A program made the translations under genes and the position numbers. A stretch of DNA of 64,000 nucleotides from Szabonella alba. GTDB lineage: Bacteria; Pseudomonadota; Alphaproteobacteria; Rhodobacterales; Rhodobacteraceae. The stretch covers positions 372,001-436,000 of the forward strand of contig NZ_JAESVN010000001.1 of NCBI RefSeq assembly GCF_016765775.1, in the 5' to 3' direction. Under the pieces are notes generated by a model. The model did not search any database. It worked only from the letters and a program-made list of their open reading frames with translations, and was not told the origin of the DNA. How positions within the stretch are numbered: the stretch's first letter is position 1; each line of letters opens with the position of its first letter. This document shows, piece by piece, positions 32,173 through 35,713 of this stretch.

Positions 32173-32218
32173 TTGAACATGGTTCATGTCTGTGGAAAAT
32201 ATTTTGAACGACGTTCAT
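32173..32218. promoter_or_regulatory. Tandem palindromic operators TGAAC-N3-GTTCA over a putative promoter
   Basis: TGAACATGGTTCA (32174-32186) and TGAACGACGTTCA (32205-32217) share TGAAC-N3-GTTCA, with centres 31 bp apart, about three helical turns. A possible -35 (TTGAAC, 32173-32178) lies in the first and an AT-rich -10-like stretch (AAAATATTTT) lies between them. The second would cover the transcription start. This is a classic repression layout for the gene at 32234. Confidence 0.6.
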
Positions 32219-32233
32219 AGCAAGGAGGCTGCC

Positions 32234-33454
32234 ATGCCCGATCTCGTCAATACCGAAGATCTGGTCCGCGAAGGTGTGCTGAGCGCGGAACAGGCCCGGA
32301 TCATCGCCGCGCGGTCGCGCAGCGCTATGGTCGCGCTGGGGGTCAATGCCTTGCTTTGCGCGGGCGTCCTTGCGGCGGCGCTGGGCTTTGTCTTCTGGCT
32401 GGCCGATCCCGTTGCGGTCGCGGTGCTGGGCGGGCTGTTTCTTGCACTGGGTGCCATGCTGCTGCTGCGCGGGACATCTGCGATGCCGATGATCGGTAAT
32501 GCGGCGGCGTTGATCGGGGCGGTGATGCTGGGCGCGGGATCGGCGGTCGAGATTCTGGACAAGCTGCCACAGGTCGCAGGCGGCTGGGCGCTATTCGTGA
32601 TGGGGGCGGTGCCGGGGCTTGCGGCCGCATGGGCGCTGCGGCGCGGACCCCCGGCCGCACGGTTCCTTGCGGGTGCGGTACTGCTGATCGCGCTCGCGCT
32701 GCATCTGCTGGGGCTGTCGCGCGCGATTGACAGTCTGGGCCTGCAGGTCCTGACCCTGCCGCTGGCAAGCCTTTATGCGGCGGTCCTGCTGGTTCTGGCG
32801 GGACTTGCAACCAATCTGCGGCCAGTGACGGCGCTGGCGATCCTGCCCTTCGCGCAGATGCTCAGTGGCGCGGCGCCCTATTGGTCGGAGATCTATGCGC
32901 TTTACTCGCCCGAACCGACGCTGACGATCCTGCAGATGGGGCTGTTGCTGGTGGCCAGTCTCTGGGCGGCCCGACACTGGTCCGAATCCCGCGACGGGCG
33001 CGTGGCGCGTCATGCGGGTCTCCTTGGCATCATGGCCTTCGTCGTGGGCAACCTGTCCTTCCTGATCGGCGCGCTGACGGGCGATGTTGTGGGGGACAGC
33101 TGGGCCGGGATAGGTCATGGCCGGTTCATCAGACCCGATGGCAGCCATGACTGGGAGGCCGCAGACGCCGCGCGCCGCGCCTATGCCGCAACGGCCCTGA
33201 CGATTCCCGACTGGGTTTTCGCGCTGGTCTGGACGGCACTTCTGGCGGCAGGGGCGATCTGGACGGCGCATCGCGCGCAGCGGGGGCTGTTCAACACCAT
33301 ACTGACCTTTGCCGTGATCCATGGTGTCACCCAGACTTTTGACAGTTTCGGCGATCACCCGCTGGCCTATGTCATCGGTGGTCTGGCAGTGATCCCGCTG
33401 GCCTGGGGTGTCTGGCGGCTGAACCTCTGGTTCGAGGCGCGCACGCCCGCCTGA
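32234..33454 (+). CDS. Multi-pass membrane protein, DUF2157-like
   Basis: 406 residues. A short cytoplasmic N-terminus (MPDLVNTEDLVREGVLSAEQ), typical of DUF2157 proteins that begin with a small helical domain, is followed by about ten hydrophobic segments. A soluble loop (about residues 295-330: GIGHGRFIRPDGSHDWEAAD) lies near the end. AAGGAGG five bases before ATG 32234 fixes the start. Function is unknown; homologues are plain inner-membrane proteins. Two well-ordered palindromes over its promoter suggest tight control by a dimeric repressor, not encoded nearby. tadA follows 47 bases downstream. Confidence 0.75.
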   Translation: MPDLVNTEDLVREGVLSAEQARIIAARSRSAMVALGVNALLCAGVLAAALGFVFWLADPVAVAVLGGLFLALGAMLLLRGTSAMPMIGNAAALIGAVMLGAGSAVEILDKLPQVAGGWALFVMGAVPGLAAAWALRRGPPAARFLAGAVLLIALALHLLGLSRAIDSLGLQVLTLPLASLYAAVLLVLAGLATNLRPVTALAILPFAQMLSGAAPYWSEIYALYSPEPTLTILQMGLLLVASLWAARHWSESRDGRVARHAGLLGIMAFVVGNLSFLIGALTGDVVGDSWAGIGHGRFIRPDGSHDWEAADAARRAYAATALTIPDWVFALVWTALLAAGAIWTAHRAQRGLFNTILTFAVIHGVTQTFDSFGDHPLAYVIGGLAVIPLAWGVWRLNLWFEARTPA

Positions 33455-34025: not shown

Positions 34026-34721
34026 TCAGAGGGCAATTGCCTCCATCACCTGCGGCTCGATGACCTGCACGCCGGGCAGGCCCGTGATCAGATCATCCGC
34101 CGATTGCGCAAGGATCGGGAATGTCCGGTAATGGCAGGGGATCACGGTCTTGAAGTCAAAAAACTTCCGCGCCGCAAAGGCCGCGCGCTTCATGTCCATC
34201 GTATAATGGCCCCCGGCACAGAGGATGCCGATATCGGGCTGGTGATATTCCGCCATCCAGCCCATATCGGCCATGATGTCGGTATCGCCCGAGACATAGA
34301 TCACATGGCCCTCGCCCGCGATCATGAACCCGGCCTCGGACCCTGCGGGGATCAGACCCTTTGAGGTGAAATCGACGCTGGCGGAATGGGTGGCGTTGAC
34401 CATCGTGACCGCAGCCCCGCCCAGATCAAGCGTGCCGCCCTTGCCAAACCCCATGGTCTTGACCCGGTCCTGCGCGCCCAGCCACTCGGAAAGCTCATGG
34501 ATACAGGCAATCGGGATGTCCTTGTCCCGTGCGATTTCCGCCGCATCCCCTGCATGGTCGCCATGGCCATGGGTCAGCAGGATATGGGTCGCGCCCGCCA
34601 ATGCCTCATCCCGCCGTCCGGCGGGAAAGACCGGATTGCCGGTCAGCCATGGATCCACCAGCAGCACGGCCTGTTCGATCTCGATCCGGAATCCGGAATG
34701 GCCCAGCCAGATGATCTTCAT
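34026..34721 (-). CDS. Metal-dependent hydrolase, UPF0173 (metallo-beta-lactamase fold)
   Basis: 231 residues. The metal site is THGHGDHAGD (HxHxDH), supported by THSAS, YVSGDTDIM and the C-terminal PCHYRTFPIL His. The opening MKIIWLGHSGFRIE and DPWLTGNPVFP are typical of UPF0173/YtkL. Substrate unknown. The ATG overlaps the stop of the LysR gene by 4 bases, so it is coupled to that regulator. Confidence 0.9.
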   Translation of the reverse strand: MKIIWLGHSGFRIEIEQAVLLVDPWLTGNPVFPAGRRDEALAGATHILLTHGHGDHAGDAAEIARDKDIPIACIHELSEWLGAQDRVKTMGFGKGGTLDLGGAAVTMVNATHSASVDFTSKGLIPAGSEAGFMIAGEGHVIYVSGDTDIMADMGWMAEYHQPDIGILCAGGHYTMDMKRAAFAARKFFDFKTVIPCHYRTFPILAQSADDLITGLPGVQVIEPQVMEAIAL

Positions 34722-35713
34722 GATGTCTCTCCTCTATGCGGAACGGGGTCTGCGCCGTCGAAATTCCCGGCAGCGGGCGCTGGCAGGGGATCCGGCAACC
34801 CCGCCACGGCGGCGGCCAGATCCGCCTTGCAGCGGGCGATGATGAAATCGACGAACAGCCGGATCTTGGGGTCGCGCAGGCGGCGATGCTGCGTCAGGCA
34901 GGTCAGTTGCGTGGGCTGCGGCGGGGTCGCGACGGCCACGGGCAGAAGCCGCCCCTCGCGCAGATGCTGCGCCACCTCGAACAGCGGTTTCAGAACGATG
35001 CCGCGCCCGTCCAGCGCCCAGCCGGTCAGCACATCGCCGTCATCCGATTCGAACGGTCCCGCAATCTCGTATCGGCGCGGGCCGTCCTCGGTCTGCAGCG
35101 TCCACTGGAACTCCTTGGCGCCGGGAAAGCGCAGGTTCAGGCAGTCATGCTTGTCTGCCAGCAAGGCCGCGCCATCAAGGGGCATCCCGCGCCGTTCGAT
35201 ATAGGCGGGCGCCGCGCAGAGCACGCGCGGGCAATCGGCGACCAGCCGCATTTTCAGCGTCGAATCCTCCAGCGTGCCCAGATGGAAGGCCACATCCAGC
35301 CCTTCGGCGGTCATGTCCACATGCCGGTCCGACAGGCGCAGGCGCAGGTCTATCTGCGGATAGATATCCTTGAAGGCAGGCAGATGCGGCCCGATGAAGC
35401 GCCGCCCGACCCCCAGCGGCGCCGCGACAAAGATCGTGCCGCGCGGGTTCTGGGTGACATCCATCACCGCCGCCTCGGCCTCTTCGATCGTGTCCAGCAC
35501 CTTGCGCGCGCCGTCATAAAAGATGCGACCATTCTCGGTCGGTTGCAGGCTGCGCGTTGTGCGGTTGAACAGCCGCACGCCCAGATGTTTTTCTAGTTCC
35601 GAAATCCGGGATGACGCGACCGCCGCCGAAACCCGCTGATCGCGGGCTGCCGCACTCATGCTGCCCAGTTCATAGACACGGACGAACATTTTCAGCGTCT
35701 GCACATAGGACAT
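34718..35713 (-). CDS. LysR family regulator, likely controlling puuD
   Basis: 331 residues. The winged helix domain reads LKMFVRVYELGSMSAAARDQ, VSAAVASSRISELEKHLGVRLFNRTTRSLQ; the effector domain starts near PRGTIFVAAPLGVGRRF. The 30-residue C-terminal tail is Pro/Gly-rich and unusual. It is divergently transcribed from puuD with 129 bases between the start codons, the standard layout of a LysR protein and its target. It is coupled to the UPF0173 gene downstream. The inducer is unknown; a purine breakdown product would fit. Confidence 0.9.
   Translation of the reverse strand: MSYVQTLKMFVRVYELGSMSAAARDQRVSAAVASSRISELEKHLGVRLFNRTTRSLQPTENGRIFYDGARKVLDTIEEAEAAVMDVTQNPRGTIFVAAPLGVGRRFIGPHLPAFKDIYPQIDLRLRLSDRHVDMTAEGLDVAFHLGTLEDSTLKMRLVADCPRVLCAAPAYIERRGMPLDGAALLADKHDCLNLRFPGAKEFQWTLQTEDGPRRYEIAGPFESDDGDVLTGWALDGRGIVLKPLFEVAQHLREGRLLPVAVATPPQPTQLTCLTQHRRLRDPKIRLFVDFIIARCKADLAAAVAGLPDPLPAPAAGNFDGADPVPHRGETS

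Follow-up and report, generated by a model that had tools for sequence, protein, structure and literature searches.

Paired TGAAC-N3-GTTCA sites before an unannotated membrane-protein gene of Szabonella alba, putative operators of a TetR-family repressor with phage-shock-like targets in relatives

Which regulator reads the two palindromes that stand before the gene of an unannotated 406-residue membrane protein in Szabonella alba, and to which response does it belong? The question arises from a stretch of 64,000 nucleotides, here called the window, and it has a wider setting, as the switching-on of PspA/IM30 genes outside the model bacteria is, to our knowledge, poorly known. PspA is a membrane-repair protein, and PspA/IM30 is placed in the ESCRT-III superfamily. 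The reading preferred here, held with high confidence albeit on sequence comparison alone, is that the two sites, termed O1 and O2, are operators of a TetR repressor that would control an envelope-stress, phage-shock-like regulon, present in this organism in a reduced form that lacks pspA. The sites are located as follows.

Positions 32174-32186, no strand assigned: operator O1, TGAACATGGTTCA, an exact match to the motif, overlapping a putative -35 box
Positions 32205-32217, no strand assigned: operator O2, TGAACGACGTTCA, an exact match to the motif, over the expected start point

Both palindromes were confirmed at the place given in the preliminary description, with a centre-to-centre distance of 31 bp, and a motif scan found no other match in the 64 kb, even with one mismatch permitted. 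A count of two at this tolerance is unremarkable, having been equalled in 21 of 100 shuffles; the two exact sites 31 bp apart, unlike this looser count, are rare. From base composition, 0.02 exact sites are expected per 64 kb, and 1.4e-5 exact pairs at a gap of 5-35 in the entire genome. The scan of the whole genome returned four exact sites, compared with one for the backwards-pattern control, namely the O1/O2 pair, one site on another contig, in front of a TetR gene, and a fourth inside an open frame that reads, by eye, as aspartate-semialdehyde-dehydrogenase-like and is probably a chance occurrence. The intracoding site and the one-mismatch count, which falls within chance, are what can be said for regarding the palindromes as accidental and without function; set against the small number of pairs expected, the conservation at promoters and the association with TetR described below, this view already fails on conservation and can practically be dismissed.

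Within and downstream of O1 the following elements were assigned.

Positions 32173-32178, plus strand: putative -35 box TTGAAC, inside O1, inferred from aligned orthologous promoters and missed by the consensus scan
Positions 32196-32205, plus strand: AT-rich AAAATATTTT, putative -10 region between the operators, inferred from its position relative to orthologous promoters, a poor match to the consensus
Positions 32222-32228, plus strand: ribosome-binding site AAGGAGG, read directly from the sequence
Positions 32234-33454, plus strand: gene of the 406-residue polytopic membrane protein, an open reading frame putatively controlled by O1 and O2

The reading frame from the ATG at 32234 proved right, with a good ribosome-binding site in front of it. 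The suggestion that the palindromes bracket promoter boxes could be upheld only in part: a sigma-70 consensus scan of the region upstream of the gene returned no promoter, and it is the alignment of orthologues from which a -35 box in O1 and a -10 box between the sites were inferred. In these aligned promoters the first site mostly reads CTTGAAC or GTTGAAC, with an AT-rich, -10-like element some 17 bp beyond TTGAAC and ahead of the second site. With TTGAAC as the -35 box and the -10 region between the sites, one dimer would lie over the -35 box and the other over the start point. The pair might also be thought to control mainly the divergent smpB, whose start codon (32075, minus strand) lies 98 bp from O1 in a shared intergenic region. 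The sites, however, overlie the inferred promoter of the 406-residue protein and track its gene in other genera, where adjacency of smpB was left unchecked, and a main role at smpB is judged very improbable.

The protein itself is predicted to be a helical membrane protein, its model being all-helical with a mean pLDDT of 80.4. No Pfam family was reached by the window protein, no PDB entry was matched by the model in Foldseek at E ≤ 0.001, PADLOC gave no match for this protein or for the TetR, and a peptide-pattern search of the named genomes returned no relative. In the absence of a fold match no fold-based function is claimed, and a role in envelope protection is no more than a guess from the company that the gene keeps. 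DUF2157 (PF09925) was considered as a family and rejected: the window protein stays below the curated cut-off, a weak match was obtained for one of 30 homologues only (E 0.01), and a profile comparison with a DUF2157 protein from locus L255 gave 0.2% probability. At L255 (genome G709) the DUF2157 gene, with the site at its start, is oriented divergently from the gene of a distant TetR homologue and may be a membrane-protein target of analogous kind; the 406-residue protein differs in having no PF09925 match.

Homologues of the 406-residue protein are present in 41 of 394 family genomes (one genome per genus), and the loci of 30 of these 41 genomes were fetched. The preliminary description would have been refuted by a motif pair not conserved upstream of orthologues. 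The exact site was found upstream in 14 of the 30 fetched loci, or in 13 after one of them, L031 (G152), had been dropped by hand; about 75 bp upstream of the homologue, its motif forms part of the stem of a hairpin that resembles a terminator and belongs to the upstream gene, and the genome is a site-rich one. The motif is conserved to the extent that 11 of the 13 site-bearing promoters hold two or three exact sites. Only a gap of three between the half-sites works at these loci (14 of 30, against 0 for each other gap). On a tree of the 30 homologues the site label requires 3 changes, compared with 10 after shuffling, and none of 500 shuffles reached so low a number. The window protein sits at the end of a long branch (0.92 changes per column), so that persistence of the sites is not explained by residual similarity. 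A convincing site is missing from 17 of the 30 loci, five of which belong to genomes that possess the TetR; a TetR was recorded in 12 of 13 genomes with a site as opposed to 5 of 17 without (p 8e-4). In two genomes that were not fetched, G022 and G241, site clusters were seen just upstream of the homologue, among the matches listed.

The preliminary description had proposed a dimeric repressor, for example of the TetR family, with no regulator gene nearby. This last statement needs qualification, as a LysR gene lies at 34718-35713 of the window; the candidate regulator is indeed remote, on a different contig of the same genome, and has the expected site at its own promoter.

G000:C1:49491-50105, on a contig other than the window's: TetR gene of 205 residues, the candidate regulator
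G000:C1:49441-49453, on the same contig: exact site, 38 bp before the ATG start codon of the TetR gene

The gene product combines the TetR_N helix-turn-helix (PF00440, 26.3 bits against a cut-off of 24) with the C-terminal ligand domain TetR_C_33 (PF13305, 36.2 against 26.8 bits). Homologues, including a clear closer group, were detected at E ≤ 0.001 in 269 of 394 family genomes (one genome per genus). Just upstream of the 30 closest loci the exact site was found in 29, and in the thirtieth, L107 on a short contig, it is present too when read in the right orientation; 21 of these fetched loci, picked by hand, make up alignment A1. The same holds for the 80 closest named homologues, all from Rhodobacteraceae: 79 have the exact site no further than 75 bp upstream of where the match begins, whereas half-site gaps of 0-8 other than three gave 0-1 of 80 and the reversed word none, so far as comparison of sequences can tell that a gap of three is essential. 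A TetR repressor, inferred to be dimeric, is supported by the site at its own promoter, in the absence of binding data. In the promoters of the TetR genes the dinucleotide TA is concentrated 5-8 bp ahead of the site, as one would expect, by inference, of an operator lying over the start point immediately past the -10 box. Beyond the family, a search in which 24 of 337 genomes had a match and 20 loci were kept supplied 16 loci of distant TetR proteins (L244-L259), and 12 of these carry the site within 200 bp upstream.

Two further observations concern the regulator. The TetR homologues at L072 and in genomes G144, G162 and G351 are each interrupted by one in-frame stop and are possible pseudogenes. 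In G157, a divergent TetR of 25% identity (L239) has the exact site 48 bp upstream and the gene of the 406-residue protein has two sites; a new regulator may here have taken over an operator that was retained.

Whether site and regulator belong together can be judged from their joint occurrence across genomes. Single sites are a weak signal in this respect, since genomes without the TetR also carry them (0-10 each, with a mean of 2.36 over 306 genomes, the site-rich G111 and G258 being omitted and a third, G152, sitting in the lower TetR tier), and pairs were used instead. When 388 family genomes were tiered by TetR identity into 67 at ≥ 45%, 13 at 36-42% and 308 others, paired sites at a gap of 5-35 occurred in 56, 11 and 2 of them, respectively, which makes 67 of the 80 TetR-bearing genomes versus 2 of 308 others (Fisher p 4e-59), and reversed-pattern pairs in none of the 388. 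One should add that the tiers were set after the hit list was known and that genera are not independent samples; such a contrast could not easily come about in this way. Among the closer genomes, 11 of 67 have no pair inside the searched gap range. These numbers weigh on the possibility that the sites belong to some other DNA-binding protein of which the TetR gene is merely one target. No binding test exists, and G007 and G088 possess site pairs without a close TetR homologue; in G088, however, a distant TetR match (28% identity) is situated 2.4 kb from the site cluster. As the site accompanies TetR in all but one of the 80 named loci, the pairs are distributed as described, and the link persists in other families despite different neighbours, ownership by another protein is considered unlikely.

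If the sites are operators of the TetR repressor, its relatives indicate what else it may govern. In most of them tetR is followed by pspA (PF04012) and a YiaAB-like gene, usually with three sites between tetR and pspA. The gene pspA was present in the fetched flank of 61 of the 80 named TetR loci, and every one of the 61 has at least one upstream site, located within 150 bp in 59 cases and about 160-234 bp upstream in the remaining two; 51 have three or more. Conversely, all 14 genomes with pspA, out of 31 searched, contain the TetR. Further site-bearing genes in relatives include a KefC-like antiporter gene divergent from DUF2145, an LplT-acyl-ACP-phospholipid acyltransferase gene, an acyltransferase-3 gene and a gene for an FAD-binding DprE1-like protein. 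In Rhizobiaceae (L260-L263) three sites separate tetR from the divergent pspA, yiaAB and acyl-[ACP]--phospholipid O-acyltransferase genes, and the neighbours of TetR in distant families include pspA, an LplT-resembling MFS gene, a CDP-alcohol phosphatidyltransferase gene and DUF2157 genes. What has been observed directly is the presence of the sites, their conservation, and the fact that they are linked to the TetR gene and to these targets; membrane and phospholipid maintenance is the common theme of the site-bearing genes.

The distances between sites in these promoters bear on the earlier proposal of cooperative, same-face binding. The 31-bp spacing of the window pair is not a rule among relatives: upstream of orthologues of the 406-residue protein it is mostly 32-34 bp, with some cases of 23, 26 or 55; at pspA promoters spacings of 21-23 and 34-36 bp account for 108 of 113 cases, the remaining five being 56-57; and at the KefC-like/DUF2145 and LplT-acyltransferase promoters 53-54 was found. 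These values group near two, three and five helical turns and are compatible with binding to the same face. To this extent the proposal holds, but the value of about 33 bp at promoters of the 406-residue protein is perhaps merely the distance from the -35 box to the start point, and for this gene the spacing could be set by promoter geometry alone.

The wider regulon that had been suspected is accordingly found in relatives, with pspA, lplT-aas and kefC-like/DUF2145 as members, but in the present genome it comprises only two promoters at the level of exact matches. PspA could not be found in this genome by protein search or by PF04012, which leaves tetR and the gene of the 406-residue protein as a minimal regulon. 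The same combination without pspA is seen in G078, G331, G216 and the incomplete G334. At eight named loci from Pseudotabrizicola and its kin (L125, L127, L128, L129, L131, L133, L134 and L201), only the tetR site is present, with no nearby pspA, and their TetR proteins are among the nearest to that of the window's genome. As pspA, the best-understood target, is absent, the stress label for the window rests on what is seen in relatives.

Efflux pumps are under the control of many TetR repressors, and on this general ground one might expect an ordinary drug-response regulon, with the 406-residue protein as an exporter and a drug-like ligand. The authors of an RNA-seq study on R. tropici CIAT 899, in the part of it available to us, named the TetR RS28830 among regulators implicated in acid stress and likewise saw a link to efflux pumps (PMC5936775). 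The targets do not fit this expectation: neither PspA, YiaAB, the KefC-like protein and DUF2145 nor LplT-acyltransferase, CDP-alcohol phosphatidyltransferase and DUF2157, all of which were checked, are known drug pumps, and the 406-residue protein falls in no transporter family and was without a fold match at the threshold given above. An efflux regulon is therefore thought improbable. In the same portion of that study, PspA (RS28825) rose by a log2FC of 4.87 in acid growth and 4.42 in acid shock, and the gene next to it, the hypothetical RS28820, by 4.46 under acid (PMC5936775). A plasmid region of R. tropici shows the order tetR, pspA, YiaAB-like gene, with three operators between tetR and pspA; that these are the RS-tagged genes is inferred from tag order only, the record being without annotation. 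The published Rhizobium acid-stress data are in this sense open to re-reading.

DesT and FabR are TetR repressors that sense lipid composition and tune membrane lipids; the DesT operator has a TGAAC-like half-site, but both differ from the present case in the gap and in their targets, which are desaturase and fatty-acid genes. The closest solved structure is PDB 3cjd, a TetR-family regulator from structural genomics, which scored 217.7 bits with the TetR of the window's genome and 298.8 bits with the TetR family profile, and whose entry bears a generic molecule name with no target or operator given. The enterobacterial Psp system (PspF-PspABC) resembles that of the relatives in having PspA/IM30 as the core effector under a regulator and in being inducible by envelope-type stress, which in R. 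tropici is acid, so far as the accessible part of the study goes (PMC5936775). It differs in the regulator: the place of PspF, which is a sigma-54 activator held by PspA according to the portion of the source at hand (PMC9239133), is taken by the gene of a TetR repressor that has an operator of its own. Neither a PspF-type activator nor PspB or PspC turned up in the flanks that were inspected, whole genomes not having been covered, and the window's genome lacks even PspA. Two surveys of Psp systems, in the parts that were accessible, do not mention TetR, and the full-text literature yielded no account of a conserved operator linking TetR with PspA or phage shock, most subscription papers and regulon databases being unsearchable; nor did the motif string or the entry code 3cjd lead to a paper there. 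TetR repressors and PspA are each known, and their union through a conserved operator is, within the limits of this search, apparently unreported.

The following mechanism can be envisaged. A TetR dimer with the PF00440 and PF13305 domains would repress its own gene through one identical site, while one dimer on the -35 box and one on the start point of the gene of the 406-residue protein would shut out RNA polymerase; an unknown signal would then bind the repressor and release both genes. A membrane- or lipid-derived signal is probable from the nature of the targets but has not been shown. In relatives the same repressor and site would control pspA-yiaAB, the lysophospholipid transporter/acyltransferase and the KefC-like antiporter with DUF2145. 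All that is said here of binding, of repression, of the signal and of what the 406-residue protein does is inferred, as there are no binding or expression data for the window's genome. A more general proposal, for which the chances seem evenly balanced, is that Alphaproteobacteria have a widespread envelope-stress response governed by a TetR that senses membrane or lipid state, in place of PspF or a two-component system; through a conserved TGAAC-N3-GTTCA operator this repressor would regulate PspA as well as ion efflux and the re-acylation of lysophospholipids, and the 406-residue protein would be a new effector still controlled after the loss of pspA. What is indicated is a little-known control of the bacterial response to membrane damage, and with a conserved operator and a repressor that has a solved homologue in 3cjd the question is directly testable. 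Once the ligand has been identified, one would know what triggers an alternative Psp-like response in Alphaproteobacteria of the sea, the soil and root nodules, and an unannotated membrane protein is given a function to look for.

A separate observation was made on three site-rich genomes. G111, G152 and G258 contain 64, 69 and 66 exact sites, respectively, with a reversed control of 1 each; the sites (loci including L202-L221, L235 and L236) are scattered and their spacers varied. G111 and G258 have neither closely paired sites nor a site at their nearest TetR homologue, and the motif perhaps serves in site-rich genomes as a separate genome-wide signal, chromosome-organising or other.
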